Shown piece by piece: positions 10,316 through 46,866 of a DNA stretch of 64,000 nt. Source of the stretch: Lachnospiraceae bacterium A4 (lineage in GTDB: Bacteria > Bacillota > Clostridia > Lachnospirales > Lachnospiraceae); the NCBI GenBank assembly GCA_000403215.2, contig KE159538.1, positions 373,398-437,397 on the forward strand, written 5' to 3'. The position numbers and the translations under genes are program-made. A model generated the notes under the pieces. The model was not told the DNA's origin. It saw only the letters and a program-made list of their open reading frames with translations, and did not search any database. Within the stretch, counting starts at the first letter, position 1. Each line of letters opens with the position of its first letter.

Positions 10316-11617
10316 TCACCCTTCATTATAATCAGCATCCTCGGCATCATCTGTATTCCGTTTCAGTCTGTCTGTGTAAAAGGACGGCATATACTCATCA
10401 TTAAAATATCCAATATTAACAATCCCCATCTGCTCTAGCTGCGCTCGAATCTCGCGATAAAAAATATTGCAGATAATCACGCCGCTGCCCTCTGGCAGAT
10501 TTTTTAATTCTTCAGGGTTTTTTACCATCAGACCTTCAAACTCCGTATCCCATAACTTCGGATTATTATCGCAGGTAAAAAGCGGCGGATACTTTCTGCC
10601 ATAGCATTTCATATAATTGCGGCACATGTTCCCGGCTCCAAAGAGCGCAACCCGGTCAAATTTTTTCAGATCTTTTTCGATATTGATCTGCAGATCAAAA
10701 TAGTCCAGCATCTCCTTATAGACAGGCATCAGGTATGGCTGTAAAAGCGGAGAAAACGCAACAGTCGTATCAACCGTCTCCAAAATCAAATACCCGTCGA
10801 ACAGAATATCCCGAAGCCCTCTGATCACACTCAGCCAGTCCATCGTAGATCTGCGTCCATACGCATTCGTAAATGGAAGCTGCCTTGCCATGTTCTGTCC
10901 GTCATTCTCTGTCAGGATTACCGCCTGAATCCGGCTGTTCAACTCCGACGCCATGCGCTGCATGTTCTGTCCGCAGATATTGCAGTTTCCCACATCCAGA
11001 CAGAATCCAAAGCGCTGCATACCACATGCCCTGTTTAACGCATCCACCCATTCTGCTGCCGTCTCCCCGTCAGAACAGACACCGCGGAGCAGATGACCAT
11101 TGTGGCTGCGGCATTGGTTTGTCAATAAAATTTTTGTATCCTCGTTGCTGCACACCGCCGCAAGATTTAGATAAAATACCTTATTTGCCTCCCACAATTC
11201 CTCCTGTTTCAGTCCTGCAGATAACGGCTGTACGATGATGTCATGACAATCCATCTCCTCACATGCCTTTACACAATCTGCATCAATCTGCGTAACCAAC
11301 CTGTTTAAGTCCACATAGCTATAACCAGTCTTTTCATTCAGATTCAAATTCACATCAACAAACGGCAGGCGGACAATGGACGGTAGCAATGCATGTTCCT
11401 GAAACTGACTAATGACAGCTTTGTAATACTTTCTCGTCTGATTTGGTTTCCATTTCGACTCCTCGCTAACCCGGTCTGCCAGAATCCCTGCAGGCGACAC
11501 AATCAGACCAAAGTCAAACAGGATTCCCTGGATGCCTGCTTCTTTTAGTTCCTTGATACTTTGTTTTGGCTTTTCCGGGTTGAAGATAGTTCCAGCCATT
11601 GCACAGACTTTTTTCAT
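10316..11617 (-). CDS. Sugar isomerase/epimerase-like TIM barrel fused to Rossmann-like module
   Basis: A start at 11617 with GGAGG five bases upstream gives 433 residues. Residues 1-310 resemble the TIM-barrel sugar isomerase/epimerase family, with AGIQGILFDFGL, FGFCLDVGNCNICGQ, AVILTENDGQNMARQLPF and YLILETVD. The usual Asp-Thr-Gly-His is altered to Asp-Val-Gly-Asn and His-Asp to Glu-Asn, so metal binding and activity may be changed. Residues 325-425 are the Rossmann-like module seen throughout this locus: VALFGAGNMCRNYM, TCDNNPKLWDTEFEGL, VKNPEEL, GSGVIICN. It lies 48 bases upstream of its presumed active relative, so the pair may work as a complex or the fused copy may be a ligand-binding subunit. 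Confidence 0.7.
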   Translation of the reverse strand: MKKVCAMAGTIFNPEKPKQSIKELKEAGIQGILFDFGLIVSPAGILADRVSEESKWKPNQTRKYYKAVISQFQEHALLPSIVRLPFVDVNLNLNEKTGYSYVDLNRLVTQIDADCVKACEEMDCHDIIVQPLSAGLKQEELWEANKVFYLNLAAVCSNEDTKILLTNQCRSHNGHLLRGVCSDGETAAEWVDALNRACGMQRFGFCLDVGNCNICGQNMQRMASELNSRIQAVILTENDGQNMARQLPFTNAYGRRSTMDWLSVIRGLRDILFDGYLILETVDTTVAFSPLLQPYLMPVYKEMLDYFDLQINIEKDLKKFDRVALFGAGNMCRNYMKCYGRKYPPLFTCDNNPKLWDTEFEGLMVKNPEELKNLPEGSGVIICNIFYREIRAQLEQMGIVNIGYFNDEYMPSFYTDRLKRNTDDAEDADYNEG

Positions 11618-11702
11618 ATATCCTCCATATATAACAATCCATTCAGAATTACAATGCTCATGAATCAGCGTTATTGGCATTCTTTATGAATTATCCGTAT
11701 CA

Positions 11703-14700
11703 TTATTTTATCAAATGCTGATAAATAGAATCTGTATTGTAACCAGTTCCTTTATATGTAAGCTTCTGAAGAACCCCGCCTTGTATATAACTGTTATACG
11801 CCTCCTCTATATAAGGCTCCTGCAGATGTTTCTGAAGCTCTGTAGCATTTTTGTTGTTTACTGGTATTTTTTGAAGCGCATTTTCCACTCCTCCAAGTTC
11901 TCTGCAGGCAATGGCAATCAAAAAATCAATCATATAATAATGCGGCACTTTATCATATTCTCTCAAACAATAGAAGAATGTTTCCATAACAAAGTGATAC
12001 AATTCTGCGCCCTTTCTGCCTCCTAGAAACCAAGTTACCCACGAAGTATTGGTACAGTATATTTTTTCCCCAGTGCTCCGTGTCAGAAGCTCATACGCAA
12101 AATATTCTTCAGGAATACAGTCTGTCATATAAACTGTTGCATCCAGCCATATCCCACCATATTTATAAAGCAGACAGCATCTTGTGATATCTGCCAAATG
12201 AGCGGGAATCAACCTTCCATATTCCGCCTGCTTTACAATATAATCCGGCAGCTCTATGTATTCTTTATAATTGTCCCATGTGATAAGGACATGCTCGCTA
12301 CCTTTCGGAATGCTTCTGCGCTGGCTTTCCAGACACTTTCTTACCAGTTCGGGAGCATTTTCCTCCCCCTGCCACCAACAGCTCCATACATATCTGTTTT
12401 CCGTTTTGACAGGACAGTTCAGGTTTACAGCCTGCTTCGGATAATCTTTAATAAACGATTCTGCTGATTGGTATATCATCCTATAGGGTATGCGGTCTAT
12501 CATTGTGTAATCAAGCTCATAAACCTTTCCTGACATGCCATACATAGCCAACAATTCCCGCGCATCATCCACAAAGCAGTCACTCATTGTCAGAAGAATC
12601 ACATCATCATCATGGAAATCTGCTTTAGAAACCTCCACGACCGGAAGTCCATAAACCTGTTTCGGATTTCCCTTATTGGAAGACACCAGAATACACTCTG
12701 CCTGAAACGATATTTTGCACGTTGCCATTACTTCCATAAAGGATGCAAGACGCAATCCAGCCCCATAAAGCTTCACATGCTGTGCACTGCGCAAGATTTC
12801 CATCAAACCGGCTAAATTGGCTACCTTCTGTCTATTGTTCACCTTATCCTTTAACTTTGTCGTACTAATTCCTTCCGTGTAAGGAAAAAACACCAAATCC
12901 GCCCCATGCCGCTGTAAAAATGCCTTCTTTGCCATCCACTTTGGGTCTCCTGCGTAATCGCTTCCCGAAAACTGTACATCAAAATGATATCTGCGGTACG
13001 CCTCATCCGTGTCGCCCTGGTTGAGCGGTATCTCAACCGCTTCGTCCACATAACGGCACGCACGCACGATGGCAATGCGCTCGCCAAACGGTATCTGCGG
13101 ACTTGATTTTTTGTGCCTGATGACACCCTCGTCCGTCACGACGCCCACAATCAGATGGCTGCACTGTGCCTTTGCCCGCATCAGCAGATTCAGATGCCCA
13201 ATATGGAACAGGTCAAATACACCTGCAATGTAACCGACATTGTATTTCTTTTGCTCTACCTGTCGAGAAATATCGTTCTCCACTGCCGTCTGCCTGTCAT
13301 CTATGTATGATGCCCGCGGATCATACACACTGTAATTTGGAATCCCTGCGCGGTGCAGTTGCTTTACGACCGGAAGATAGTTCCTGATGCAGATGATCAC
13401 TTTGTATTCCGCCGGATTCATTTCCAGCAGTGCCCTAGGTGCGAGCACTGGAAGCCCGTCAATTTCCATCCCCCAGCGGCTCTCATCATTGTCCAGATAA
13501 CCGCTTATAGGATAGACAGCATCATACTTTTCCCGAAATTGCTTAGCATATTTCCCGGAACCGAAAAGATACAGCCTGCGTCCTTTTGTATGATGAAACA
13601 CGTCCTTGAAAATCATCTTGTATTCTTCCTCAGAATAGTTCATACGTCTGCGGTTTTCCTGAACGGTGTCATATTCCCTGCGTCCCTCCTTAAAATAATC
13701 CGAAAGCCCGTCATCTTCCCTCAGAATATTCAGAAAATGGCTGATAAACTTCTGATACAATCCCATGTGCTCCAGCATTCCATATCGTTCATAAAGCGCT
13801 CTTCTTGGAAGAATTCCATCTAGCTGGTCGTTGAATTTGTAGATAAACTCGATTGTCCTGAGCATCACCGCCTTGGCAGGCACATTCTCAAGATATAATT
13901 CCTGATCATAAAAGACAAAGGAATGGTTCGCATAAAAACAGTTTAGGGAAACCAGATCGAGATATCCCCTTTTTAAAACCACGCCTAATTCTTCTCGCTC
14001 CTGCGTTGTGCCAGACACAATCTGCTTCCACTTATACCGATTGGGATCATCCTTTTTGCGCTTTTCCCAGCCCGGCTCAAACTCCTCCCAGTTGATTTCG
14101 TTGAAGTCCGCAGCCTCTGACGAATGCAAAATGATCTGCCAAAAGGCATCCAACTCCGTCAAAAAAGCATCTTTGTCTCTTTGCAGCAACTCTCTAAAAT
14201 GCTCATTTGCCGGAACGCCTGCCATATATGGCATTACAAAAGCGCCGTCCTTCACGACAGCGTCAATCATCTGGACATGATGCGACATCAGATCCTCATT
14301 ATGTTCCAAAAGCTGCTGCAGCTTCTTGTTTCCCTCCTGATACAGGGCACGCTTCTCAACAAATCCGTCCTTTCTTATAATTGTTGCCATAGCATTTTGA
14401 AGTCCCCGCTCTGCGGAAAGCGTAACCTGCCAAATCCCCGTACATTCTCCCTGACACGGACACTCGACAAAAAAGCCGTTTGCCATCCCGTGAAGCAGAC
14501 CATTTTCCATCAAGGATGGATAGAGCTCCTCCTCCATAAGAAATACCGTATCTGGATTGTTATACTCTGGAAATACGCGGATATCAAGTGCCTCATTCGG
14601 CATGTAATCCTCTGCAAGTAACAACTGCGGATTGGCACAGCGTGGAAACACTGAGAAAAAGCGGTGCTGCAAGAATCCTGCCTGTTCCAGAAGGGCAGTC

Positions 14701-15182: not shown

Positions 15183-15224
15183 GTCCTATCCTCCTAGTAC
15201 CTTGTTTTTTAATTCCTACAGTTC

Positions 15225-17990
15225 CTAAGGACGCATAAATAAATTCGTGCTGCCAAAGGCATTGAGTGGAAGTTTATATATGGATATCCTATCTCGTGGA
15301 ATCTGATAATGTATTAACTGCTGTATAATTTCCTGCTGTCCGTTCACTTTTGCAATCAGATAATGCGCATCTGGATACCTCCTGACAGCCTCCTTCGGCG
15401 ACAGGACATCATAACCATAAAAGCTGCTGCCCCATTTTTCCTGATTATTGTCGCAGAACGCCACCATATTCTCCAAGCGATTCATGCGCAGCAGGCACAG
15501 TGCATACTTCGCCGCCTTTCCAGTGCAGAATATGACAAACTGTTTTTTTGCTGCCATTTCCTGCACAAAATTACCATAAATATCATAAGCCGCCTTTGCT
15601 CTGACCGCAATATAGGCTTCATAAGCCTCTGGCTGCTCTGTAAACAGACGCAGTTCAATCCAGTGTTCCAGAAGCATCTCCTCCTGCCGCAATCGTCCTT
15701 CCGCTCTGTCCTGCCACAGAATCTCCCGAAATTGATTAAGATCTGACAGAATCTTTTCATTCGGCTGGCTGTGCTCCCTGAAAGTCATATACGGCGAAAG
15801 CGCCATCATCACAGTTTCTCTTGCCATAAATGCGAGCCGTTTACGGTCAATAATGCCGATTTCTCGCATCCGCTTACGAATATACCTGCACTCTTCCAGA
15901 TTATATCTGACAAAATCCGTACTGTATGTCGATGCCGCCGCATTGTCCCGTCTGTATCTGTAAAACAGACTGTCGATAAACATTCCTCTTCTGACATTCA
16001 TATCCACCATATAGCGAAAACCGCAGTCTTGGAATGCAGCGCCCGGGCTTTCATTCAAACGAATATGAAATTCTCGCAGAAACGACAACCTGTAAATGCC
16101 GTTCCATATGTATACATCCGGTGAAAGAGCTTTTTCCATGAAATACTGTGAGGAAAAAATCTGCCCTGTATCACCCAGCGGATTCTCCAGAAGATACTGC
16201 TCACCTTCATATGGTGTAACCAGCGTATAGAATCCCGCTTTTACATAATCGAGATTTTTCTCGACAGCAGTCTGATATAAAACCTCATACATGTCAGGCT
16301 CTATGCAGTCGTCGGTCTCTACAATCCCGATGTATTCGCCCTTTGCCATATCGATGCCGAGATTCACCTGATAACCATAGCTTCTTTTCTCTGATGGCAC
16401 AAAGCGGATGCGGCTGTCCTTTGCGGCGTATTCCTGAATAATCTCGCAGGTTCCGTCAGTGGACCCTGCGTCGATGCATAGAATTTCAATATCCCTCAGG
16501 GTCTGGATTATCACGCTCTCTATACATTCACGTATGTAGGCTGCCACGTTTAAGGATGGCAGCAGGACTGTAATCTTAGGGGAAACTGGCGATTCATTTC
16601 TCCATTCCCTTTTCGTTTCACATATCATTTCTTCTAGCCTCCCACTGAATGCTTCCATACTAAAATATTTCTCATACGTTTCTCTTGCTGCCTCTCTCAT
16701 ACTTTGCATTCCACGCTGATCGGCAATAATTTGTCCCATTCTTTTCGCCAATACATCTGTGTTGCCATATTCCACCAGAAATCCATTTCTGTTGTCATCA
16801 ATGTAATGAGCAATTCCTGTGCTATTTGTGGCGATACATATTTTCCCCGACATCATTCCCTCTATTACGGCTATGGATAACGTCTCTTCCTGCGATGCAC
16901 AAACTACTACATCAATCTCCTGAAAAATATAGTCCATTTCTGCCCTTGTCCGCTCTCCGAGTAGTTTTACAGCGCCTATTTCCTCTGCTTTTTTTCTTAT
17001 TTTCCTGCAATACTCATTATCACCGATTCCTCCGATCAGCCAAAATTCCGCGCTTTCTCTATTACCTAATCGTTCAATTGCATTTAAAAAATAATCCTGC
17101 CCTTTTCCCGGACAGATTCCGCCAATTAGGGTAAATATTACTTTATGTACGTCTCTTCTTTCCCATTTTTTCATCTTATCGGGAATACCGAGCGGCAGTA
17201 CTTTTCCGTTCCACTCAGGATGTACTTTATTAAAATTATGCCAGGCTATCTCACTGACAGCACAAATTTTAATGTCTTTAAATTCTTTTCCTTCTACACC
17301 TTCTGGATACTGTTGCTTCACAATCGGAAAATTACCAGAACTCTCATGCAGCCACCACAATACAGGACAGTTCTCTCTGACACCAAGCGCACTCTCTATC
17401 ATGGGATAAGTGTTGACAAGAACCACATCAAACTGCTTCATCCAATTCTGTTCTCTATCGCCAAGCCACGGCAGTGCTGCACAGACTGCAACCGTAATTC
17501 CATCATTTACTGTTTCCCGAATCAATTTTTCATTTCCAAGTGGAACTGCCAATACAACATAATAATGTTCAATTAATGCCTTCGCCGCATAAACCGCAGC
17601 AAGTGAAGCCCCATTATAATCCAGGTCATTCGAAATAATCAATACTTTTCCACCATTGTCTGCACATTTCATCTCAGGCTCATAAATCTCCATTTTGCCC
17701 TTCATCCGCTCAGACCAAAAATGCGGCCACGATATAATCCTGTCTCGATCTACACCAAGCGATACCAGCTGATGATAGATCTCACTCACATAAAGACTCA
17801 CAATAATTAACTTATCAAAAGATTTCGATAAGATCTCCGCAGGCGAAATCACTCGCCTTTCATCAATATTTTTATCCCATAACTCGGCATTATTATCTGC
17901 AAATGCTACGATTTCAATATCGGTAAGACTCGCTAATTTAGGTCTTTGTATCTGATAATAATTTCCAAGTCCAAATATAATTACTTTCAT
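15225..17990 (-). CDS. Dual glycosyltransferase (GT4 + GT2) with N- and C-terminal Rossmann-like modules
   Basis: The start at 17990 (MKVIIFGLG) puts the module directly at the N-terminus and leaves a 13-base gap from the upstream gene, giving 921 residues. Residues 1-100 are the first Rossmann-like module (FADNNAELWDK). Residues 115-455 are a GT-B retaining glycosyltransferase of the GT4 kind (LIGGICPGKGQDYFLNAI, ASQEETLSIAVIEGMMSG, with the E-x7-E motif). Residues 472-600 are a GT-A domain of the GT2 kind (ITVLLPSLNVAAYIRECIES, DAGSTDGT, GIVETDDCIEP with the Asp-rich metal site). Residues 815-915 are a second module (FVIFCTGKAAKYALC, FCDNNQEKWGSSFYGY). The GT2-to-C-terminus half is richer in GC than the GT4 half, suggesting a fusion of two sources. 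It probably adds two successive sugars. Confidence 0.8.
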   Translation of the reverse strand: MKVIIFGLGNYYQIQRPKLASLTDIEIVAFADNNAELWDKNIDERRVISPAEILSKSFDKLIIVSLYVSEIYHQLVSLGVDRDRIISWPHFWSERMKGKMEIYEPEMKCADNGGKVLIISNDLDYNGASLAAVYAAKALIEHYYVVLAVPLGNEKLIRETVNDGITVAVCAALPWLGDREQNWMKQFDVVLVNTYPMIESALGVRENCPVLWWLHESSGNFPIVKQQYPEGVEGKEFKDIKICAVSEIAWHNFNKVHPEWNGKVLPLGIPDKMKKWERRDVHKVIFTLIGGICPGKGQDYFLNAIERLGNRESAEFWLIGGIGDNEYCRKIRKKAEEIGAVKLLGERTRAEMDYIFQEIDVVVCASQEETLSIAVIEGMMSGKICIATNSTGIAHYIDDNRNGFLVEYGNTDVLAKRMGQIIADQRGMQSMREAARETYEKYFSMEAFSGRLEEMICETKREWRNESPVSPKITVLLPSLNVAAYIRECIESVIIQTLRDIEILCIDAGSTDGTCEIIQEYAAKDSRIRFVPSEKRSYGYQVNLGIDMAKGEYIGIVETDDCIEPDMYEVLYQTAVEKNLDYVKAGFYTLVTPYEGEQYLLENPLGDTGQIFSSQYFMEKALSPDVYIWNGIYRLSFLREFHIRLNESPGAAFQDCGFRYMVDMNVRRGMFIDSLFYRYRRDNAAASTYSTDFVRYNLEECRYIRKRMREIGIIDRKRLAFMARETVMMALSPYMTFREHSQPNEKILSDLNQFREILWQDRAEGRLRQEEMLLEHWIELRLFTEQPEAYEAYIAVRAKAAYDIYGNFVQEMAAKKQFVIFCTGKAAKYALCLLRMNRLENMVAFCDNNQEKWGSSFYGYDVLSPKEAVRRYPDAHYLIAKVNGQQEIIQQLIHYQIPRDRISIYKLPLNAFGSTNLFMRP

Positions 17991-18003
17991 TCTTCTTTCA
18001 ATC

Positions 18004-19086
18004 CTATAATGCATATAAAACGGTTTCAAATCTTGAATTAGCATACTGGCGTAAATATAGTTTATAGTCTGGATTCAACTTTTTTATCAAAACAGGAATC
18101 TCATACAAGTCATCTGGCTTGTGATAGACGCATATTGCCAATTTAGGGTGAAAATCCCTTATAATTCTCCTGCACCCTTTCAGTGCTTCCTGCTCTGAAC
18201 CCTCTATGTCCATCTTGATAAAAGTCGGCTTTTTATCATAAACTGTTTCATCCAGCGACACTGCTTCGATCACATAGTCACTCTCTGATTCTGACACATG
18301 CGAACCGTCTGTTTCCAATGCATCAAAGTAAAGTCTGGCGGTTTTGCTCCATATACCTGCCTGATACAGCTCATAACGATATCCTGACATATTCTCCTCT
18401 ATGGCAGTTTTCTTATAAAGTTCAGGTTCAAAAATAACGATATTTGCATATTTTCCACCGCACTTGTCAATGAATTTTACGGAAGTGTCACCATCAAATC
18501 CTCCACAATCAATGAAAACCTCTTGATCTGTCAGCACTACTTTTTCATCAAAATACTCTTCTGTGCTGGGACTGACGCTCTCTGAGATATCACTCATAAG
18601 ATACACTTTTTTCATTCGTGCAAGAAAAACTTTCCTTGAAAAGTCATCCGCCAAAAGCTGATACGCATCGATATATTTGTGCATATTTTCTTCCAAATAG
18701 ACAGCAGAAAGCCTGTCATAGTACTCCCGCATAATATAAATATTCGTTTTGTCAATGCCCAACGAAATGACCTGTTTTCTGATCGCCTGATATATGTATT
18801 CTTCCACTGCACAAACCAAGACTGCTATCTGATCCCTTTTATCTTTTAGAAAATTCGGGAATACTATTTGAAGTCCTGTTTTTTCATCTGTCTGATCTCC
18901 CAAAGCATTGTCGCAGAAGCAGTATACATCAATTCCAACATTGTGCAGTATATTGTATATAACATGTCCGCAATCCCCTGCTCCAAATAAGACGAGCTTC
19001 CTGTCTTGTTTCTCAATAATGTCCCTATATTTCTCCAGATCAGCCTGGCTTCTGATTTCGTCTACTGTTTGATTAAATGCCCGCAT
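18004..19086 (-). CDS. FkbM-family methyltransferase with N-terminal Rossmann-like module
   Basis: 360 residues from an ATG at 19086 with AGGAG eleven bases upstream. Residues 30-125 are the shared module (LVLFGAGDCGHVIYNIL, CFCDNALGDQ). Residues 170-345 match FkbM SAM-dependent O-methyltransferases: VFIDCGGFDGDTSVKFI is the SAM-binding loop, IVIFEPELYKK follows, and PTFIKMDIEGSEQEALKG is the family hallmark, with PKLAICVYHKPDDL after it. FkbM enzymes methylate hydroxyls of sugars or polyketides, so this one probably caps or decorates a sugar. It sits 22 bases downstream of another methyltransferase gene and 13 bases upstream of the dual glycosyltransferase, so co-transcription is likely. Confidence 0.85.
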   Translation of the reverse strand: MRAFNQTVDEIRSQADLEKYRDIIEKQDRKLVLFGAGDCGHVIYNILHNVGIDVYCFCDNALGDQTDEKTGLQIVFPNFLKDKRDQIAVLVCAVEEYIYQAIRKQVISLGIDKTNIYIMREYYDRLSAVYLEENMHKYIDAYQLLADDFSRKVFLARMKKVYLMSDISESVSPSTEEYFDEKVVLTDQEVFIDCGGFDGDTSVKFIDKCGGKYANIVIFEPELYKKTAIEENMSGYRYELYQAGIWSKTARLYFDALETDGSHVSESESDYVIEAVSLDETVYDKKPTFIKMDIEGSEQEALKGCRRIIRDFHPKLAICVYHKPDDLYEIPVLIKKLNPDYKLYLRQYANSRFETVLYAL

Positions 19087-19108
19087 TCTTTATGACTCCT
19101 GTTCTGTT

Positions 19109-20053: not shown

Positions 20054-20299
20054 ATTTTTCTCTCCTTTTTATAGGCTTCCTCAAAAGACATTGGATTTTC
20101 TGGTTTTGAACTGATTCTTTTGCATCAACTAAAAAATAAAGTTTTATCTCCTTTCCTACTTGGACTGTGACCTATAATAAATATCAAACAAACAAATCCA
20201 AGCCGTTGAAATTTCACAGTATGCATCTTCCATTTTATCTAAAATAATTTCCGGTTCCATATACAATTATATATGACCATACATATCTTTTTCTCCCTT

Positions 20300-23085: not shown

Positions 23086-23109
23086 TATACCAAGCTCTCC
23101 TATCAATAT

Positions 23110-25404: not shown

Positions 25405-25484
25405 ATATTTTCCCCTATCAGTTCTGTATCATCATCCACAATAATAACAGTAACTCTTATAATATATACAAGTACTTTCTTATT

Positions 25485-26681: not shown

Positions 26682-26783
26682 TAAAATTTTCCTTCATTTT
26701 TGTATTATATTTATATATAGAATTCATATTGCAATTGCATTTTTTCATGGGCTCTTTATCAATATGCTGACTTTATTAGTTTC

Positions 26784-31269: not shown

Positions 31270-31301
31270 TTTTCTGCTCCCGTCAAAAAACTTTTTATCA
31301 A

Positions 31302-32429: not shown

Positions 32430-32444
32430 CCTTAAATCTTCCCC

Positions 32445-33632: not shown

Positions 33633-33689
33633 CACATTCTCCTTAATAATTGTATCCTGATATTTTATATACTCCCTAAATAAATTTTT

Positions 33690-34988: not shown

Positions 34989-35083
34989 ATACCCTCCAAT
35001 AGTATTTGGCTTTTTATACACTTATAAGCAAATTCCCAATTATCTATTAAAGCCTACCTTTATCCTATAAAACTGTTATTTAC

Positions 35084-36229: not shown

Positions 36230-36235
36230 CCTCTC

Positions 36236-37108: not shown

Positions 37109-37117
37109 AAATTAACA

Positions 37118-37783: not shown

Positions 37784-37805
37784 GCTATCTATCCCCTATT
37801 CAAAT

Positions 37806-39089: not shown

Positions 39090-39152
39090 GATGTATACCC
39101 TTCCCAATTATTAATTCATCAAATTTATAAATGAATTCATTATAGATTTTTC

Positions 39153-40313
39153 TCAATCTATATAAAAGGCATCACAATACTCACAATGCTTCCAGTTCGC
39201 TCTTCCCTCATACAAACATTTTCTTACCGTCTTAAATTTATCATTGTTCCACACATCTAAAACAGATTCCTTTGTCAAATCTCCTAATGTATTCTTACCT
39301 AAAGGGTCATTACAACACAACGAAACTTTTCCGTCCGGTCTAATTATTAGCTGCTTAAATGGCAGCGCACAACGTTCCTTCCCATAAGAAACCATCTCTT
39401 TTCTATTTGGTGCATCTCCCCCACGCGTAGTTAATATTTCATGTGGGTTTCTTAATACAATTGTTACTTTATTTTTTAATTCTATATGCTGCTCACAGTA
39501 ATCTCGTATTTCCTCACATGGTTTGATCAATCTTAAATCTTTATGGTAATTATCAATAATTAGTTCATCTAAATAATCAATAACTGCTTTAAACTTTTCT
39601 ACACTTAATAATGTACCATTTGTAAACAAGTGCATTTTTGCATTCGGAAGTTTTCCCCTTGCAAATCTATGCTTATCAATTATATCATCATCCAAAAAAG
39701 GTTCATTATTTGAAAACAATGCAAGGCGTCCTGTATAATCAATTTCTGCGAGCTGCATTATTATATTTTCAAAAAGTCCTCTCTCCATAACAGCATACTT
39801 TCGTGATTCGTTTTTTTTACTAACAGGACAAAAATCACAGTTCCCATTACACCTATTTATTGTTTCAATTTCTATATGTTCAAATAACTTATTATCTTGA
39901 TACAATAATTCCACTTGCTTATTAATAGCTTGAACAGTCATGTTTTTACCCATATTATCTATCCAATCTTTTTCAGTAAGCTTTCTTTGTGCATTGTCTT
40001 TATATGGGTTATACACAAGCATATCAGTTGGATAATATCTATCTGATTCATCTTTATAAATAGCGTAATTCCGTACTCCTAATGCTTTAAGCTGTATTTC
40101 CATTGATTTATAGCTTGCGCTGGCTATTATAATCTTATACCTTTCAGAATCATTTATTGCATCTGCGACCTTTTTAATTGGTACCCCTTCTATACTTTTT
40201 CCTATGAGGGATACATTATTATCAACAAAGTATTTTACATTATTTACTCCATATTGATTTAATGCAATATGCCCAAATTTCCCTGCGCCAAAAATAATAA
40301 CTTCACTGCTCAT
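39153..40313 (-). CDS. Radical SAM/SPASM enzyme with N-terminal Rossmann-like module
   Basis: The start MSSEVIIFGAGK at 40313 has GAGG eleven bases upstream and gives 386 residues; a GTG at 40388 would add 25 residues with no good site. Residues 3-100 are the module (VIIFGAGKFGHIALNQY, YFVDNNVSLIGKSIEGVPI). Residues 150-300 are a radical SAM domain (TINRCNGNCDFCPVSKK with C-x3-C-x2-C, then LFTNGTLLS). The C-terminus is SPASM-like (CALPFKQLIIRPDGKVSLCC, HCEYCDAF), giving auxiliary iron-sulfur ligands. SPASM enzymes modify peptides or sugars and carbocycles. In a glycan locus a sugar epimerase or dehydrogenase is plausible. Confidence 0.8.
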   Translation of the reverse strand: MSSEVIIFGAGKFGHIALNQYGVNNVKYFVDNNVSLIGKSIEGVPIKKVADAINDSERYKIIIASASYKSMEIQLKALGVRNYAIYKDESDRYYPTDMLVYNPYKDNAQRKLTEKDWIDNMGKNMTVQAINKQVELLYQDNKLFEHIEIETINRCNGNCDFCPVSKKNESRKYAVMERGLFENIIMQLAEIDYTGRLALFSNNEPFLDDDIIDKHRFARGKLPNAKMHLFTNGTLLSVEKFKAVIDYLDELIIDNYHKDLRLIKPCEEIRDYCEQHIELKNKVTIVLRNPHEILTTRGGDAPNRKEMVSYGKERCALPFKQLIIRPDGKVSLCCNDPLGKNTLGDLTKESVLDVWNNDKFKTVRKCLYEGRANWKHCEYCDAFYID

Positions 40314-40398
40314 CTCACAATTTCCTCTATAATTAGATAATTCTTTTATTAATAATCGCTCACATATAAATCGTCTACTGTTTTTCACTATATATTAT

Positions 40399-41598
40399 TC
40401 ATTCCATATATGTATTCCATATCTTTCCAACATCTTTAGGAAATACATCAACTGTTAAATTTTCTTTTTCAATAAATAATATTTTATCTTTGCTTACTCC
40501 TAGTTCCGTTAATAACACTACCGTAGATGAAACAATTTCAGAACTAAATATTGCAATAATAATAAAATCATAACTTGCCTGAGAAAACTGTTGAATTTGA
40601 TTAATATCTGATATGTCAATATTACCTACTACTTTACAATACTGCAATTCATCCATCCGTTTTATAAAACGAGAAGCAAATGCACCTTTACCATATACAA
40701 TAATGCGGCTATTTGGTTTAACTTTAGGATAAACCGCACATTTATTAACCCCAATCAATCTTTCCGGATTATATAATAATAACAGATAAAATAATTGATA
40801 CATTAAATATTCTTTTCTGATCTTCCCTATATTTTTAGAATTACTACATAACTTTATTAGATATTCTGACAAAATAAGAAAGTTTTCATAATTCTCACTC
40901 TGACTTTTCCATACGACCGAATCACCCCGCACACAATAATGATAAAAACTTCCTGAGTCCACATAAATTCTATCAATATTCATTATACACGGAATTATCA
41001 CTGCATTATCTTCACAATTTTGCAGAACATCCGGAGCACATAATTGATATTGTTTGCGAATATCAGCTTTGATCGCTTTATTCCAAAACACTTCATTAAT
41101 TGGTGCGCATAAAAATATATTTTTCTCTACACACCTATTAAATTCATCCACAAAGCTTTTTCCCTGATACATCCCATCATCTAAATATTGCTTATATGTT
41201 CCAACAGTTCCGTTAATATATTCCTTCTTATGTCCTAATACCAGCATATCAGGATTATATTGACTTAATTTTTCTATCATATATGAAAAAGCTTGATTTT
41301 CAATCCAATCATCTGAATCAACATCTGTTATATAATCTCCAGTTGCATTCATAACCCCGTACTTTCTAGCACTGACAAGTCCTCCGTTTTTCTTATGAAT
41401 CACCTTTATTCTTGAATCAATGGCCGCATACTTATCACATATCTTTCCACTTTTGTCCGTAGAACCGTCATCAACTAATATTATTTCTAAATTTTTGTAT
41501 GTTTGATTTATTATACTATCTATACATCTGTTTAAATATGTTTCAACATTATACACAGGAACAATTACAGAGAGCTTCATATCTTTTTCTTTTAACAT
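40399..41598 (-). CDS. GT2 glycosyltransferase with C-terminal Rossmann-like module
   Basis: 399 residues; the ATG at 41598 has AGGAG six bases upstream. Residues 7-225 are a GT2 domain of the EpsJ/CpsI type: LSVIVPVYNVETYLNRCIDS, LVDDGSTDKSGKICDKYA, DYITDVDSDDWIENQAFSYM with the DSDD metal motif. Residues 305-390 are a diverged module (RIIVYGKGAFASRFIKRM, VGNIDISDIN, FIIIAIFSSE). It sits between two radical SAM genes. The sugar is unknown. Confidence 0.85.
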   Translation of the reverse strand: MLKEKDMKLSVIVPVYNVETYLNRCIDSIINQTYKNLEIILVDDGSTDKSGKICDKYAAIDSRIKVIHKKNGGLVSARKYGVMNATGDYITDVDSDDWIENQAFSYMIEKLSQYNPDMLVLGHKKEYINGTVGTYKQYLDDGMYQGKSFVDEFNRCVEKNIFLCAPINEVFWNKAIKADIRKQYQLCAPDVLQNCEDNAVIIPCIMNIDRIYVDSGSFYHYCVRGDSVVWKSQSENYENFLILSEYLIKLCSNSKNIGKIRKEYLMYQLFYLLLLYNPERLIGVNKCAVYPKVKPNSRIIVYGKGAFASRFIKRMDELQYCKVVGNIDISDINQIQQFSQASYDFIIIAIFSSEIVSSTVVLLTELGVSKDKILFIEKENLTVDVFPKDVGKIWNTYME

Positions 41599-41638
41599 AT
41601 TTTGCTCCTAATAACATTATACAACTTTATTTATTTTT

Positions 41639-42781
41639 TCAGTACTTTTGCCTTGCAGCCGGAATTATAGATTGGTTATCATGCCCATAACCACCACATA
41701 TTTTGCAAAACTCTAAATATCCGCCTTCAACATTACCAGCACATAGTTCTAAAATTTCTTTTCTTGCTTCCAGATCATTTTTATCCACTTCCATCAAATT
41801 AATATATGATTTACCGTCAGGAGCTATCAGCCCTTCCATCTGTGCTGCACGATCAGCAATACAATAATATATCTTACTGCCTATCAAATCATGACATGCC
41901 ATGTTACAATATTCCATATGTTTTTTTGCGGAACTTTCATTATATTTTATTTTAACTGGTGGAAATCCCAAATCAAACCATACCATATTTTTAGTTCGTG
42001 TAATACTTATCTTATGATACTCTAATACTCTACAAAGTTCTTCTAACTTATCTGCGTAATCTATTGACTTCGTATAATCACTTATAGAAATTCCAATATT
42101 ATATCTTTTTAATGCGTCTATCACTTTCTCATCAGGAATAATAGTGCCATTTGTGATAATACCTAAATATCCTATTCTATCTCTATAATTTGCCAATATG
42201 TCAATGATTTCACATAATTGTGGATGTAAAAACGGTTCTCCTCCATATAAATTCATATCCAATACTTTATCAACTTTTTCGAAAAACAAATCAACACTTT
42301 TTCTGATATCATCAATTTTTTCATGCTTTTTTTTCTTAATATATGGCGTAAAAACTGAACAATTTTTGCAATTTAAACTGCAAAACGACGTAATCGGAAT
42401 ATCCGTTTTTTCAACGCATATCATTCTCTTATATTTATAGTACCATTCAGTAAAAAACTGAATCCAAGTTGTAAAATTGATATGTTCTACCAGTCCTGCA
42501 TCCTCTAACTGTTTACAAATTTCCTGATAATAAAATCCCTGAACAGTAACTATTATATTGTATTTATAAATTATTTCTAATGCATCATTAAAATTTATCA
42601 CTTTAACCCCATCAACAATTTGGTCTCTCTTTTGAATATCATTATCAATAATAGCAATTATATTGAAATCTTTTTTTAAGTACGAGAGGGCACGTCGCCC
42701 ATAGCGTCCATAGCCAAAAACAATAATATCTTTTAAATTTTTCCAACTCTCATCACATAATTTATTCAACTTCGTTTCCAT
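41639..42781 (-). CDS. Radical SAM enzyme with N-terminal Rossmann-like module
   Basis: 380 residues; the ATG at 42781 has AAAGGAT upstream and is 2 bases from the stop of the preceding gene. Residues 15-110 are the module (DIIVFGYGRYGRRALSYL, AIIDNDIQKRDQIVDGVKVI). Residues 130-320 are the radical SAM domain (ITSFCSLNCKNCSVFTPYI with C-x3-C-x2-C, LYGGEPFLHPQLCEI, ITNGTIIPDEKVID). The C-terminus has further cysteines (YLEFCKICGGYG). It is a paralogue of the protein at 32445-33632, with the same domain order and matching GGEP and TNGTI-PDEK motifs. Substrate unknown. Confidence 0.8.
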   Translation of the reverse strand: METKLNKLCDESWKNLKDIIVFGYGRYGRRALSYLKKDFNIIAIIDNDIQKRDQIVDGVKVINFNDALEIIYKYNIIVTVQGFYYQEICKQLEDAGLVEHINFTTWIQFFTEWYYKYKRMICVEKTDIPITSFCSLNCKNCSVFTPYIKKKKHEKIDDIRKSVDLFFEKVDKVLDMNLYGGEPFLHPQLCEIIDILANYRDRIGYLGIITNGTIIPDEKVIDALKRYNIGISISDYTKSIDYADKLEELCRVLEYHKISITRTKNMVWFDLGFPPVKIKYNESSAKKHMEYCNMACHDLIGSKIYYCIADRAAQMEGLIAPDGKSYINLMEVDKNDLEARKEILELCAGNVEGGYLEFCKICGGYGHDNQSIIPAARQKY

Positions 42782-42783
42782 GC

Positions 42784-43815
42784 TTATCCTTTCTCTGTAC
42801 TACTAATAAATATATCCACTACCCGTTGTCGCATATCAACAGTAAATTGATTTGTCAACATAAAACATCCACTCTGTAGAACTACATCATGAAATGTTGG
42901 ATTAATATTAATTACTGTTACTTTCCGCGGTTTTCTTTTTAAACTTTCGCAGATGTTATTGATTGTAGCTACAAACATGTCTTTTTCAAATGGATCAAAA
43001 TAATAAAACCAATTATAATCATCTAATGCTTCTGTAATTTTTGTGGCATCGCCGTATATACAAGAAACTGTATTCTTAGTATCTATTCCTAAGTTATAAA
43101 AATTTGAAAGCATTACCTCATAAATTTTCTTTTCAAACTCTACCCCACCAGCTTTTTTAAATCCATAATCAAGAAATGAAATTATTGCTCCGCCCTTACC
43201 ACATCCAAAGTCAAAAATTGCATCATTTTCTGATGGAATGCAATGACATTTATCCAAAATCGGAAATATTTCTTTTTGAGTAGTAATTGCATAATAGTGT
43301 CCGCCGGAATTTTTATTATCAAAGTATTGAGTCTGAATTGATGTTACTAAATTGCAATCATATACATACTCCAGCCACTCCATAAACTGTACATCACGTA
43401 TTCCTTTTTTCTTCTGATAAAATATTTCCACGGAATCATCCACTTCATTTGTATATTTATTTCCATACACAACCTCTAAAAAATTGAAATAAGATTTTCC
43501 TTTGACATATCCATGTTCGTGCATTTTTAAAAAAATACGATCATCTTCAGGAATTGTCAACCAAACTATGGCATCTTTTACATCTTTATAACCAAAATCA
43601 AAAAGACTAGACCTAAAAAGAGGAAATTCATATGGCATACTTCTTTCCCAATTATCTTCGACTATGTAATCTACTTTAATACTGTGATAATACTCCGCAT
43701 ACCACGCTATAAATCTACCTGAATACCCATATCCCCACAACACAATTCTATGCCCAAATCCCTTTAGTATTATAGAATCTAATTTATCTCTAAACTCCTC
43801 TAAAACCCGCAACAC
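42784..43815 (-). CDS. SAM methyltransferase with N-terminal Rossmann-like module
   Basis: No ATG is well placed. A GTG at 43815 with GGGGAGG eight bases upstream gives 343 residues; a GTG at 43839 would add eight residues. Residues 20-115 are the module (RIVLWGYGYSGRFIAWYA, YIVEDNWERSMPYEFPLF). Residues 160-335 are a class I methyltransferase (DAIFDFGCGKGGAIISFLDY as SAM loop, AGGVEFEKKIYEVMLSNF, WFYYFDPFEKDMF in the catalytic position). The D-P-F motif resembles that of N- or O-methyltransferases acting on small molecules. The start is the least certain part. Confidence 0.75.
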   Translation of the reverse strand: MLRVLEEFRDKLDSIILKGFGHRIVLWGYGYSGRFIAWYAEYYHSIKVDYIVEDNWERSMPYEFPLFRSSLFDFGYKDVKDAIVWLTIPEDDRIFLKMHEHGYVKGKSYFNFLEVVYGNKYTNEVDDSVEIFYQKKKGIRDVQFMEWLEYVYDCNLVTSIQTQYFDNKNSGGHYYAITTQKEIFPILDKCHCIPSENDAIFDFGCGKGGAIISFLDYGFKKAGGVEFEKKIYEVMLSNFYNLGIDTKNTVSCIYGDATKITEALDDYNWFYYFDPFEKDMFVATINNICESLKRKPRKVTVININPTFHDVVLQSGCFMLTNQFTVDMRQRVVDIFISSTEKG

Positions 43816-43862
43816 CTCTTCTACCTCCCCTTCACACACTAAACTTTACATATTAGTTTATA

Positions 43863-44451
43863 TTACTTTATAGTAGTATCATACTTCTCAATAAACGCAT
43901 CAATATCTATATAAAAATCATCATACCTTTCTCGAATCACATCATCCGACCAATTCCACCATGCTATACGATTTAATTTCTCTACCTGTTCCGATGTATA
44001 CCTATATCTAATAATTCTTGCCGGAGCACCTACTACTACTGCATAATCTGGCACATTCTTCGTAATGACAGCCCCTGCTCCCGCAATTACACCATTTCCA
44101 ATATTGGAACTATTTGTTATTAAAACATTTCTTCCTAACCAAACATCATTCCCAATCTTCACCTTAGAAAACTTTTGCACAATTCCTCTGGGTGCTACTC
44201 CTGCAAAATACCACACTTCTTGATTCCATTCATTATATGTATGCTGCAAAGCAGAATATATATTTCGATCAGCATATATAAATGGATGAGTTGACAAATA
44301 GTTATTTGGATGATTTTCCAATACATCTGTTCCAACTGCAAAACTGCAAAATGCACCAACAGACTCCACAAACTGATGATTACATAATGGTCCGTAACTA
44401 TACTTTCCACACTTCGTTAAACATGGCTTATTTTCTCTATACCCCCCCCAC
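43863..44451 (-). pseudogene. CatB-like acetyltransferase, C-terminal part of a gene split by an insertion sequence
   Basis: From the insertion boundary at 44451 the minus strand reads in frame through GGYRENKPCLTKCGKYSYG, a left-handed beta-helix acyltransferase of the xenobiotic (CatB/Vat) type with VESVGAFCSFAVGTDVLENH, VKIGNDVWLGRNVLITNSSN, IGNGVIAGAGAVITKNVPDYA, VVVGAPARIIRYRY and WWNWSDDVI. The hexapeptide turns are intact. An apparent start inside the insertion sequence (MPKMAKNCGF) is an accident of the junction. The missing front of the gene lies at 46539-46866, on the other side of the element. The whole gene would have encoded a Rossmann-like module plus an O- or N-acetyltransferase for a sugar. 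A truncated, active enzyme made from a start within the element cannot be excluded. Confidence 0.8.
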
Positions 44452-44456
44452 AGGCT

Positions 44457-44513
44457 GTCCGAAAACCCACAATTTTTGGCCATTTTGGGCACAAAAAATG
44501 CCAGGTTTTTCGG
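44457..44513. repeat. Imperfect palindrome at the downstream end of the IS1182 element
   Basis: TCCGAAAACC near 44457 pairs with GGTTTTTCGGA ending at 44513, with further partial pairing between (CAATTTTTGGCC against GGCATTTTTTGTG read on the other strand). The 57-base structure starts within the terminal repeat. It could stop transcription running in either direction through the element, or serve as a second transposase binding site. Confidence 0.5.
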
Positions 44514-44588
44514 ACATTATTTGTCCGTTTATAGTTACCTGACCTCGAAAACTGAATAAAATACGCTTTTTTGTTGTTATTTTTCCCA

Positions 44589-46325
44589 TTATGCTGCAAC
44601 AAGTGCCATCAGTTCTTCAAATGAGAACATGTTACACGCCCTGGACAGGTTATATCCCATGGCCATGAGCGCAAATTCCCCACCTACTTTCTGTTTACCC
44701 TTTAACAGAAAGCAGGCTGCTCCCATTGCTCGTTTTATTGTTCCAAACGGATGCTCTGAAATACACATCCGCTGGTTCATTTTTTCCCTGTCCGGCCTGA
44801 GTTTAAACCTGACTACCTTTTTCTTTTCAAAATGGTACTTTGCCTTCTTCTGGTTCTTTTTTCCTGGTTTCTCTGTTTCTTCTTCTGAGTTTTCCGCTTC
44901 TTCCGGTTTCCACCACTTTGCTTTCTTTTCCAGGCTGTCTTTGCCAAAATCCGTTTCCTTCCAGTTCGTGTTTCCCTTCCCGTTCACACACTTATCACGG
45001 TATGGGCATCCCTTGCACGCCTGCCTGTTGGCATATCTTGTCGCCCCATTTTTTTTGATGCTTTTTCTCCTGAGGATTTCCCCTCCGGGACAGTAAACCA
45101 GATCCCTTTCCGGATCCCTGACAAAATACCCTTCCCCTGCACGGTTTTTCATTTCCTCTTCTGTTCCATAGGGGCTCTCCACTTTTTGTTCCGGCCCGTC
45201 CGAAACTTTTCTCCTTACCTCTGCTACCTCCATACCTTCTATTACATCCGCATATGCTTCCGGCACCACTCCCGCATGAAGACATCTCTTCAGTTCTTCT
45301 GCATTCGTGCCTGCTGTATTTAACTCCCCTGCTTCCTCATACTCGATCTCCAGTTCATATGTGTCCTGTCCGTCTGGCAGAATGACATTAGGAATAATTC
45401 CTTTCTCAAGACATGACACCATATCTTCGGCCTGTTCGTATCCCTTATCTGCCACAGCTTCAATAATCCTGTCCCCGGCTTCCTGTTTAATGGACTCCGC
45501 TGTCGGAGCAATTAATCCATGGTCTGTTGCCTGGTTTGTCGCCAGGTAATCCATGATCAGGTGCGTCTCTGAATCCACTGCTGTCTGGACATTGTACGAC
45601 ACGTCCATTCCATTTTTATTTTTCATCAGCCGCGCATCTGCATCTGTCAGTGAAATCTGCGTGTGGTTTTCTTTCTCCATCAGTTCCCTGTATGAACGGT
45701 ATTTCTCCAGTCTTTCCTCTGCCTCCTTCAGTTTTGCTTCCAGTTCTTCCCTGGTCAGCGTTCCACTGACAGCCTCCTCCTCTTTATCCGCTTCCTCTAT
45801 CAGCCGCAGGTATTCCTGTGTGTGGTCTTCCAGCCACTTTATCCTGTCATCCAGTTTCATAATGGTAAAATTGCTGTCTTTTCCATTCCAGGCTTTAAAC
45901 TTACTCCCATCTATAGACACGTATCCTGTTTCCAGATCTACGGTTACCCTTTTTAGAAATTCCTTAAATACTTCCTTTAAATTGTCTGCATTGTCTTTCC
46001 TGAAATCAGATATCGTGCGGAAGTCAGGACGGAGTCCGCCAAGCATCCACATAACTTCAATGTTTGTGACGCATGCCGCCTCAAGTTTTCTGGATGACCG
46101 GATGTTATTGCGGTATCCGTATAGATATAGTTTCAGCATACTCTGCGGATCATAACATGGCCTTCCTTCAAAACTTGGTTCTGTTTTTTCGAATCCCATC
46201 TCTTTTAAGTCTATGTGATCCACAAAACAATCGATTACTCTTGCAATACTATCCCATTCCACCATGGAATCAAGTGTATTTATTACCGCCTGGTTTCTAT
46301 TGATAGGTTTTACTATATATGGCAT
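44589..46325 (-). CDS. IS1182-family transposase, full length
   Basis: The ATG at 46325 with GGGGTG seven bases upstream, the same arrangement as the truncated copy at 5033, gives 578 residues. Landmarks: YDPQSMLKLYLYGYRNNIRS, PDFRTISDFRKDN, VSIDGSKFKAWNGKDSN with the first catalytic Asp, SLTDADARLMKNKNGMDVS, IEAVADKGYEQAEDM with the second Asp, a Cys-rich segment CKGCPYRDKCVNGKGNTNW, and EHPFGTIKRAMGAACFLLKG near the C-terminus with the final Glu. All domains are present, so this copy is probably able to move itself. Confidence 0.9.
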   Translation of the reverse strand: MPYIVKPINRNQAVINTLDSMVEWDSIARVIDCFVDHIDLKEMGFEKTEPSFEGRPCYDPQSMLKLYLYGYRNNIRSSRKLEAACVTNIEVMWMLGGLRPDFRTISDFRKDNADNLKEVFKEFLKRVTVDLETGYVSIDGSKFKAWNGKDSNFTIMKLDDRIKWLEDHTQEYLRLIEEADKEEEAVSGTLTREELEAKLKEAEERLEKYRSYRELMEKENHTQISLTDADARLMKNKNGMDVSYNVQTAVDSETHLIMDYLATNQATDHGLIAPTAESIKQEAGDRIIEAVADKGYEQAEDMVSCLEKGIIPNVILPDGQDTYELEIEYEEAGELNTAGTNAEELKRCLHAGVVPEAYADVIEGMEVAEVRRKVSDGPEQKVESPYGTEEEMKNRAGEGYFVRDPERDLVYCPGGEILRRKSIKKNGATRYANRQACKGCPYRDKCVNGKGNTNWKETDFGKDSLEKKAKWWKPEEAENSEEETEKPGKKNQKKAKYHFEKKKVVRFKLRPDREKMNQRMCISEHPFGTIKRAMGAACFLLKGKQKVGGEFALMAMGYNLSRACNMFSFEELMALVAA

Positions 46326-46538
46326 GGAAAACACCCCGCTAAACTGGAACTTTTAAGATACTCCCATTATACCAGATATTGGTGGAAAAGTCCCACATAT
46401 TTGTTTATTTAGCGTACTTTATTCAGTTTTCAAGGTGCATTTATAAAAATCGCTCTGTAAGCGTTTTTTAGCTCTGTTTGGGCGATAATCCTACGTTTAA
46501 AATCCTGTTATCGCCTCTCAGGGGTTTTCGGACAGTCT

Positions 46539-46866
46539 CCCCCGCAAACAGCTCTATAATACAGTCTTTTGAAAAATACTGTTCCAGACTACGATGTACT
46601 TCCTCATATGAAACTGGATTTTCTATTGTAAGCAATACTGTATATTGGCTGTTATCAATGTCACTAAAGTATTCTAAACTTTTGATTTCAAGGTTGTATT
46701 TTGACAATCTTTTATCTACAATAAAATTTTCTTCTATACCAAAACATTTATTTAATATTTCTTTTGTCAATAAACCATTCTCTCCAAATGGATATATAAT
46801 AAAATTACGTTTTCCTAATTTCAAAGCCTGTTCAATTCCATTTCTTATTGTTTGATATCTGGTCAT
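46539..46866 (-). pseudogene. N-terminal Rossmann-like module of the split acetyltransferase gene
   Basis: A good start at 46866 (AGGTAGAG upstream) opens a frame of about 109 residues that ends at the insertion boundary: NFIIYPFGENGLLTKEILNK, FIVDKRLSKYNLEI and YTVLLTIENPVSYEEVHRSL. This is a diverged copy of the locus-wide module, with YPFGENG in the glycine loop and VDKR in the DNN position. The frame runs about 20 residues into the element and stops. Without the element, the sequence would join the CatB-like acetyltransferase at 44451. The architecture recalls PglD, in which a similar N-terminal domain binds the UDP-sugar ahead of a beta-helix acetyltransferase. Confidence 0.75.

Follow-up and report, generated by a model that had tools for sequence, protein, structure and literature searches.

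Why should so many enzymes of unrelated families, encoded side by side in one bacterial locus, carry the same small domain? The question is raised by a stretch of 64,000 nucleotides from Lachnospiraceae bacterium A4 (GCA_000403215.2, contig KE159538.1, 373,398 to 437,397, forward strand), referred to here as the window, in which we translated 34 minus-strand open reading frames (ORFs) between 9.3 and 56.2 kb. At positions 10316-46866, 21 ORFs, all on the minus strand, encode 24 copies of a GxGxxG...DNN module of about 95 residues and Rossmann type, of which we found no description in the openly accessible literature searched. We favor a reading, to which we give a probability of roughly 0.45 and so a little under even odds, in which the window is a protein-glycosylation island and the shared module would bind a nucleotide, gate the enzyme that carries it and associate with other modules.

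The alignment places hydrophobic residues first, followed by [FYW]-G-x-G-x-x-[GA], a helix-like stretch, and a second strand-like stretch that closes with D-N-N or a like motif; after this region come G-x-x-V, a further hydrophobic stretch and finally I..QL...G. A sequence-only reading of this DNA had counted about 24 copies in 21 genes, and hidden Markov models (HMMs) of the cut-out copies bear this out. In a leave-one-out (LOO) scheme of 24 models, each run against 1020 shuffled ORFs, the held-out copies scored from 6.9 to 68.8 bits and all 24 exceeded their own decoy maximum (6.6-8.3 bits). Two copies are weak: the C-terminal copy of the 40399 protein, in which the DNN region is missing, stands barely above its decoys (6.9 against 6.6 bits, a margin of 0.3 bit), and the 42784 copy reaches 11.0 bits against 7.1. 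These are the two missed by an HMM iterated over other genomes, on match columns, which recovers 22 of the 24. With the full HMM none of the other members of the 34-ORF set scored above 6.0 bits and only the 21 module ORFs were matched, the Gfo/Idh Rossmann domain at 50488 being passed over. Fifteen copies score above 45 bits in the LOO scheme, and the best solved protein reaches 39.6 bits with the 24-copy profile and 44.8 bits with a 75-sequence profile; the other nine score at or below real Rossmann relatives such as Rex, and score alone therefore cannot set those nine apart from such relatives. The results support a single homologous module behind all of the copies, and the observation is confirmed as real and larger than first stated.

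The larger setting is seen in the rest of the genome, where 66 of 68 matches at E <= 0.001 (a tally in which some rows are fragments or below 26 bits) fall into four loci, namely the window (24), C2 (19), C1 (13) and C23 (10), with two outside. The genome has 62 matches to glycosyltransferase family 2 (GT2), 16 of them in module loci and 46 elsewhere, and the module is on none of the 46, which supports its restriction to certain loci. Matches at E <= 1e-5 are present in at least 99 of 150 genomes of the family, and at E <= 1e-6 in at least 101 of 291 genomes of the class, these being lower bounds from scoring part of the candidates per genome; many of the single matches come from frames as long as those of Rex, NeuD or WbpM proteins, and the survey numbers thus overstate the module proper. 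Of eight loci examined for their source, Lachnospiraceae account for five, a Eubacterium metagenome-assembled genome (MAG) for one and Cohnella endophytica (Paenibacillaceae) for one; genome matches at E <= 1e-6 number 64 in the Eubacterium MAG, 21 in a Lachnospiraceae MAG and seven in Cohnella.

For the partners we turned to 47 stretches of relatives, chosen for module clusters and comprising 1434 ORFs (two pairs are near-duplicates from sister genomes), which contain 328 modules in 320 ORFs: 140 are C-terminal, 136 N-terminal, 26 internal, and 26 are in ORFs of fewer than 190 residues. Over twenty enzyme families carry the module there, at either end, and the earlier view of a module with no fixed partner is upheld. 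Pfam adds LicD, RgpF, CDP-glycerol glycerophosphotransferase, DUF4422, WbsX, TOD1/MUCI70, TupA ATP-grasp, GT8, WcbI, GT-D, polysaccharide deacetylase and GDSL to the partners, in a scan of 20 of the 137 proteins that had carried no label. The end that is used depends on the partner, being C-terminal in 75 of 76 GT2 proteins, N-terminal in 21 of 22 radical S-adenosylmethionine (SAM) proteins, and divided in GT4 (15 N-terminal, 9 C-terminal) and HAD proteins (three and three). The 26 short ORFs are stand-alone copies, and 11 of them have a predicted transmembrane (TM) helix, two pairs among these being near-identical sister copies. Proteins of this kind with an N-terminal hydrophobic helix, 157-174 residues long, are found at L032:17683-18186, C1:588470-588946, L087:16860-17336 and elsewhere, and by eye a QW...YF...IAIYGMG stretch is common to the module of the window GT4 protein (28062) and the membrane-anchored stand-alone copies.

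Homologs of the window enzymes in the 47 sources divide according to whether they carry the module: it is on 78 of 102 GT2, 21 of 25 radical SAM, 13 of 13 FkbM and 22 of 46 GT4 proteins, and on none of the NeuA (0/13), NeuB (0/6), LicC-type (0/9) and GDPD (0/4) homologs. The proposal that makers of soluble precursors lack the module therefore stands for these last four and fails for TagD-type proteins (5/19) and LicD (6/11); acetyltransferases (5/12) and the 51860 type (1/26) are also mixed. The 1159-residue protein at 11703-15182 reads, by Pfam, methyltransferase, module, cytidylyltransferase, module, Caps_synth, and since its TagD-like cytidylyltransferase domain is flanked by modules, the rule that cytidylyltransferases go without is not a clean one. 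The module is on the FkbM, Methyltransf_11 and Methyltransf_24 proteins of the window but not on the TylF-type methyltransferase (37118).

The type of locus is indicated by what the module loci lack. Using a simple hydropathy scan, with six or more predicted TM segments defining a multi-pass protein, we find one multi-pass ORF among 179 in the four module loci, and that one outside the module span, versus 26 among 154 in three other glycosyltransferase loci of the genome (C4, C37 and C9; p 9e-9), of which C37 has one weak module match. The flagellar locus C3 (1/26 multi-pass) was left out of the 154, and its inclusion gives 27/180 versus 1/179. No multi-pass flippase, polymerase or transporter is encoded by the 46 non-overlapping window ORFs of at least 120 residues, none of which has six or more predicted TM segments; 44 of the 47 relative sources have no multi-pass ORF, and a predicted TM segment is present in 33 of the 320 module ORFs, with at most two per ORF. 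Within C4, the 135 kb at C4:20000-155000 contain 23 GT2 matches, 17 ORFs with six or more predicted TM segments, and no module match.

A second indication comes from flagellin, whose genes lie inside seven of the fetched relative stretches. Taking one module cluster per genome, and a chance model in which each genome counts as a single piece and contig ends play no part, flagellin is within 20 kb of the cluster in 15 of 30 genomes of the same class (expected 1.26), these being genomes chosen for module clusters and kin rather than independent (22 belong to the same family, and the pairs G272/G287 and G026/G181 each come from a single genus). The same is found in 12 of 14 tested Bacilli (expected 0.28), drawn from 19 with at least two listed matches and leaving out G463, G536, G568, G616, G664 and 16 one-match genomes; none of 200000 simulations reaches either count. 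In a phylum sample not used for this test, flagellin is within 20 kb of a module in G746, G863, G777, G887 and G838, and not in G837, among the matches listed. Flagellin is present in 244 of 299 genomes, and presence alone says little. A locus of relative G243 shares nine gene types with the window (a TIM protein, TIM plus module, methyltransferase/cytidylyltransferase plus module, the 51860 type, NeuA, NeuB, DUF115 plus module, GDPD, and TagD plus Gfo) and its last module is some 8 kb away from a flagellin gene. The lipid carrier entertained earlier becomes less likely, because multi-pass proteins are nearly absent from module loci and related clusters are often near flagellin. The most useful of the new facts, in our view, are the association with flagellin and the near lack of membrane assembly proteins.

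Whether the modules of one locus share an address was examined through their identity. Between modules on different partner classes it is 0.2061 within the same locus versus 0.2071 in different genomes (difference -0.0008, null standard deviation 0.0019), and a locus-specific address is rejected on whole-module identity, a comparison that a few specificity residues would escape; the recognition of one shared glycan per locus, as the sequence-only reading had proposed, is not borne out. Identity within the locus exceeds that outside it in 29 of 46 loci, many from few pairs. Across genomes, modules on one class of partner are 22.3% identical, and N-terminal pairs 25.1%. Because same-partner modules are somewhat more alike across genomes and same-locus modules are not, the modules appear to be old and to have been inherited together with their enzymes, and there is no sign of homogenisation within loci.

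The nature of the module is suggested by its relatives. A profile of 75 modules matches the solved structures 3nkl (1.2e-10; an N-domain of WbpM/PglF type), Rex (1.1e-8), 2g6t (4.3e-6) and VioB (2.9e-5), and more weakly WbaP (0.0035) and a D-mycarose C-methyltransferase (4rv9, 0.0066). These and the ordinary NAD(P) enzymes that also match place the module, as far as the fold can be judged from profile matches to solved structures, in the wider Rossmann group; its nearest kin among glycan-related proteins are probably sugar-nucleotide enzymes. The likeness to the N-terminus of PglD noted earlier holds to this extent, that the module appears related to PglD-type N-domains (the VioB match, and a weak match of the NCBIfam model NeuD_NnaD to 14 of the 24 copies), although none of the 20 cut-out window copies with bit scores shown reaches the PglD_N cut-off. 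In whole-protein scans the module passes a Pfam cut-off in none of the 21 window proteins; among the 20 of 24 cut-out copies with bit scores shown, one passes that of C2185-like_N and one that of TrkA_N.

Conserved positions in 330 aligned modules include three glycines (0.96, 0.87 and 0.64) and an Asp (0.79). In the 323 that could be counted (seven of the 330 rows dropped for gaps, and some rows near-identical sister copies), D or E occupies the ribose-contact column in 258, GxG is present in 269, and both in 213. In Pcryo_0637, a protein of PglD type, the UDP-sugar is held at its ribose by Asp40 and at its uracil by Asp41, the PglD equivalents being Asp35 and Asp36 (PMC8040287), and by our reading of the alignments the conserved Asp of the module corresponds to the first of these, Asp40. 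VioB also has Asp-Asn at the ribose and uracil contact positions. The residue pattern fits a ribonucleotide ligand with a variable base contact, and the same features are shown by NAD-binding domains.

How such a domain could work is illustrated by WbaP, whose accessory domain is the best functional parallel. The domain is reported to be stabilised by UMP, UDP and UTP and to make most of the dimer contacts, and UMP inhibits the full-length enzyme with an apparent half-maximal inhibitory concentration of 4.1 uM (PMC10942596). By analogy, the favored reading runs as follows. In the cytosol, soluble enzymes would assemble an elaborate glycan, on protein rather than on a membrane lipid, in an island that in relatives adjoins, and probably decorates, flagellin, and the glycans would be added to proteins before their export from the cell. 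Most of the island's transferases and tailoring enzymes carry the shared Rossmann-type accessory module, which may bind the ribonucleotide part of a nucleotide sugar or the nucleoside mono- or diphosphate released by transfer. The bound nucleotide could both gate the enzyme and promote association with other modules, as in the WbaP accessory domain, and the membrane-anchored stand-alone copies could tether the enzymes. That stand-alone copies exist argues for a module able to function with no enzyme in cis, and this speaks for gating or a scaffold rather than for a substrate handle alone.

Several observations weigh against this. Many Rossmann domains have glycine loops and an acidic residue after strand 2, and ordinary NAD(P) enzymes match the profile (tetrahydrodipicolinate reductase at 0.00027, a shikimate dehydrogenase fusion at 0.0013 and ketol-acid reductoisomerase at 0.0035). 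The GxG, the acid in register, or both are wanting in 110 of the 323 copies, and the second Asp of PglD, which contacts uracil, is nearly gone, with D in two of 258, N in 119, and mostly N, K, R or S at that position. Flagellin within 20 kb was not seen in 15 of the 30 own-class genomes, in two of the 14 Bacilli, or in G440 and G441; on the window's contig about 290 kb separate the module cluster from the nearest flagellin, and flagellin as the window's own acceptor is not supported. The genome's flagellar locus, C3, has three GT2 proteins without modules and one ORF of its 26 with six or more TM segments. LicD and glycerophosphotransferase-type proteins would also fit a teichoic or capsular polymer with its own export, whose membrane parts may be encoded elsewhere, although the contrast in membrane proteins counts against such a polymer and we do not favor it.

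Of the other explanations for the module itself, the one that survives best is that modules associate mainly with each other and with membrane-anchored copies around a protein acceptor, nucleotide binding being incidental or lost. We consider this unlikely, though it deserves more weight than those that follow. The wide choice of partners, the use of both protein ends and the stand-alone copies with their frequent TM helices are all as a scaffold would have them, and the related WbaP domain is chiefly responsible for dimer contacts (PMC10942596). However, conservation is among its highest at the residues of the nucleotide site, for which a module that was scaffold alone would have no need, and within-locus similarity that might point to locus-specific pairing is absent, although a generic interface would show none.

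Less credible is the proposal that the glycan grows on a soluble nucleotide carrier held by every module, the finished glycan then being moved to protein. It would account for the presence of the module on tailoring enzymes and transferases and its absence from the NeuA, NeuB, LicC and GDPD homologs examined, and the scarcity of multi-pass membrane proteins at the loci also suits it, as does the binding of the substrate's nucleotide by PglD-type domains (PMC8040287). The use of either end in GT4 and HAD proteins argues against a handle that presents a common substrate, although GT2 and radical SAM proteins are nearly fixed, and the stand-alone copies have no active site to serve. We also know of no nucleotide-linked oligosaccharide of such a kind. 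The corresponding generalisation, that Bacillota possess a soluble, flippase-free assembly line in which one interchangeable nucleotide-binding module on more than twenty families handles one nucleotide-linked glycan destined for flagellin or a secreted protein, seems to us equally doubtful; the general idea of a shared binding module is plausible.

Recognition of a common protein acceptor or core sugar by the module is improbable. The restriction to particular loci, on enzymes expected to act on a glycoprotein, would be in keeping with it, but modules within a locus resemble each other no more than modules from different genomes do, and the conserved residues are of nucleotide-site type. Least probable is a redox sensor of NAD(H) type, as in Rex, or the remnant of an oxidoreductase domain. 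Rex does stand near the top of the profile matches, weaker matches come from several NAD(P) dehydrogenases, and one cut-out copy passes TrkA_N. Against this, the module is only about 95 residues long, its partners have no second catalytic or DNA-binding domain in common (no Pfam match to the winged-helix DNA-binding domain of Rex was found at E <= 0.1 in the 21 module proteins), and the PglD, VioB and WbpM relatives share the glycan context that Rex does not.

If the analogy to WbaP is true, nucleotide sensing would provide shared control over a whole pathway. The module is barely recognised by curated models, yet it is a very common add-on in such islands. It could serve to find them, to tell enzymes that act on the glycan from those that make precursors, and to study how soluble enzymes work in concert when there is no membrane carrier; through the membrane-anchored stand-alone copies, the scaffold idea is open to direct test.

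The module copies and the neighboring genes of the window are listed in the table. In the protein at 37806-39107 two modules stand before the Maf-like domain. A solved Maf enzyme has an N-terminal domain described as a degenerate Rossmann-like fold of unclear function (PMC11339370), and a direct sequence search found no link between that domain and the two modules. The acetyltransferase that had been described as split is in fact two ORFs, that with the module (46468-46866) and the acetyltransferase (43863-44492), separated by an insertion sequence (IS) transposase; a transposase with the same N-terminal sequence is present in three of the four module loci (the window, C1:616492-618237 and C2:100753-102498). 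Each of the genome's four module loci has, within it or next to it, a relative of the N-terminal half of the 848-residue protein (51860), and in some loci the two halves of this type are separate genes.

Table. Module copies and neighboring genes in the window. LOO, leave-one-out score; it., score with the iterated model.
Feature	Positions	Strand	Protein and placement	LOO (bits)	Remarks
Module 1	10385..10675	-	C-terminal, xylose-isomerase-like TIM barrel protein (10316-11680)	64.7	Partner AP_endonuc_2
Module 2a	13299..13598	-	Internal, 1159-residue protein (11703-15182)	58.3	
Module 2b	12501..12800	-	Second internal copy, same protein (11703-15182)	23.9	
Module 3a	17709..17999	-	N-terminal, GT4+GT2 protein (15225-18044)	49.5	Cut out, C2185-like_N 29.4 vs 27
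Module 3b	15255..15560	-	C-terminal, GT4+GT2 protein (15225-18044)	55.2	
Module 4	18712..19017	-	N-terminal, FkbM methyltransferase	59.8	Methyltransf_21
Module 5	19118..19402	-	C-terminal, Methyltransf_11 protein	68.8	
Module 6	20312..20608	-	C-terminal, GT2	54.5	
Module 7	22813..23094	-	N-terminal, GT4	59.3	
Module 8	24883..25173	-	Near N-terminus, HAD-like protein (23110-25404)	17.8	it. 20.6
Module 9	25521..25820	-	C-terminal, divergent GT2	48.8	
Module 10	26808..27089	-	C-terminal, GT2/GNT-I-like protein	36.6	
Module 11	28068..28349	-	C-terminal, GT4 (28062)	35.8	QW...YF...IAIYGMG subtype by eye
Module 12	30199..30483	-	C-terminal, GT2	48.8	
Module 13	32154..32429	-	N-terminal, Methyltransf_24 protein	64.6	
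Module 14	33288..33578	-	N-terminal, radical SAM protein	51.0	
Module 15	33732..34031	-	C-terminal, GT2	23.1	it. 36.2
Module 16a	38823..39098	-	N-terminal, DUF115/MptE-like (Maf-type) protein	47.0	PF01973
Module 16b	38499..38774	-	Second, degenerate copy, DUF115/MptE-like protein	15.9	it. 26.1
Module 17	40041..40322	-	N-terminal, radical SAM-SPASM protein	63.6	
Module 18	40450..40725	-	C-terminal, GT2 (40399)	6.9	Doubtful; no DNN region; missed by iterated model
Module 19	42464..42745	-	N-terminal, radical SAM protein	56.1	Cut out, TrkA_N 24.2 vs 23.8
Module 20	43468..43767	-	N-terminal, weak methyltransferase-like protein (42784)	11.0	Missed by iterated model
Module 21	46525..46824	-	In ORF 46468-46866	16.4	it. 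23.6
Acetyltransferase	43863..44492	-	Hexapeptide acetyltransferase ORF, no module		PF00132 below cut-off
IS transposase	44589..46334	-	581 residues, between ORF 46468-46866 and acetyltransferase ORF		PF05598/PF13751
NeuA+HAD and NeuB-type enzymes	35084..37108	-	No module		PF02348 + HAD Pfam; NeuB by eye from sequence
Module-free flank	46898..51834	-	LicC+aminotransferase, LicD, GDPD, TagD+Gfo/Idh		Pfam; GDPD named from sequence
848-residue protein	51860..54406	-	No module		No Pfam over cut-off, no NCBIfam match, no PDB sequence match
Secreted protein (362 residues, 54470) + single-TM protein (172 residues, 55637)	54470..56155	-	Candidate glycosylation substrates		Pair recurs

If the window glycosylates a protein of its own, the acceptor is perhaps of the 54470 type. 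Homologs of both members of this pair, the secreted and the single-TM protein, are found at C23, G303 (two stretches) and one G400 stretch, the secreted homolog alone at another G400 stretch, and a single-TM homolog in L085; recurrence of the pair beside module loci is noted at L032 1006-4832, L074, L075 and L078. For the 54470 protein Pfam gives no family over cut-off and the PDB nothing convincing, and 55637 was scanned in NCBIfam. An impression from the sequence that 54470 is fibre-like is not backed by Pfam or PDB, and we claim only that it is secreted.

Among known domain families, C2185-like_N (PF22674), which we take to be named from the protein of 2g6t, is approached through the 2g6t profile match, the N-terminal copy of the 15225 protein when cut out (29.4 against a cut-off of 27), and a weak match on a GT-D protein of a relative; within the whole protein, however, the 15225 copy scores 22.5, and only two of the 24 cut-out copies match at E <= 1. 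Methyltransf_14 (PF08484), the C-terminal domain of C-methyltransferases, matches three of the 24 copies weakly, is over cut-off in L083 and L076, two proteins of relatives, and is represented by the 4rv9 profile match, whereas the window copies are below cut-off and on other enzymes. PglD_N (PF17836), of the NeuD, PglD and VioB sugar acetyltransferases, shares with the module the VioB match, the glycine loop, the ribose-contacting Asp and a place in glycan loci. Yet the best cut-out copy (of the 20 with bits shown) reaches 18.1 bits against a cut-off of 23.4, none of the 21 whole proteins passes, and the partners are not left-handed beta-helix acetyltransferases, only module 21 adjoining one, with the IS between; an L076 protein of a relative is just over cut-off at 23.5. 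The WbaP/PglF accessory domain (PF13727) resembles the module in that 3nkl is the best solved match and in being an add-on to unrelated glycan enzymes. In WbaP/PglF-type enzymes a transmembrane bundle precedes the accessory domain (PMC10942596), whereas the modules are mostly on proteins with no predicted TM segment, at either end, and in many more families.

As a locus, the window is most like the flagellar glycosylation islands of clostridia (C. difficile CD0240-0244, PMC4441256; Clostridium, PMC13317340). The available parts of those accounts describe glycosyltransferases, NeuA/NeuB, a Maf-like DUF115 protein and a glycerophosphotransferase-like protein, and do not mention a shared module (PMC4441256, PMC13317340). 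Soluble glycosyltransferases, nonulosonic-acid genes (NeuB by sequence) and a Maf-like protein are present in the window as in those islands, and flagellin is near the homologous loci of many relatives, although the window itself has no flagellin nearby and many more enzymes. We propose that the window is probably an island of the same type as its flagellin-linked relatives, dedicated to another acceptor.

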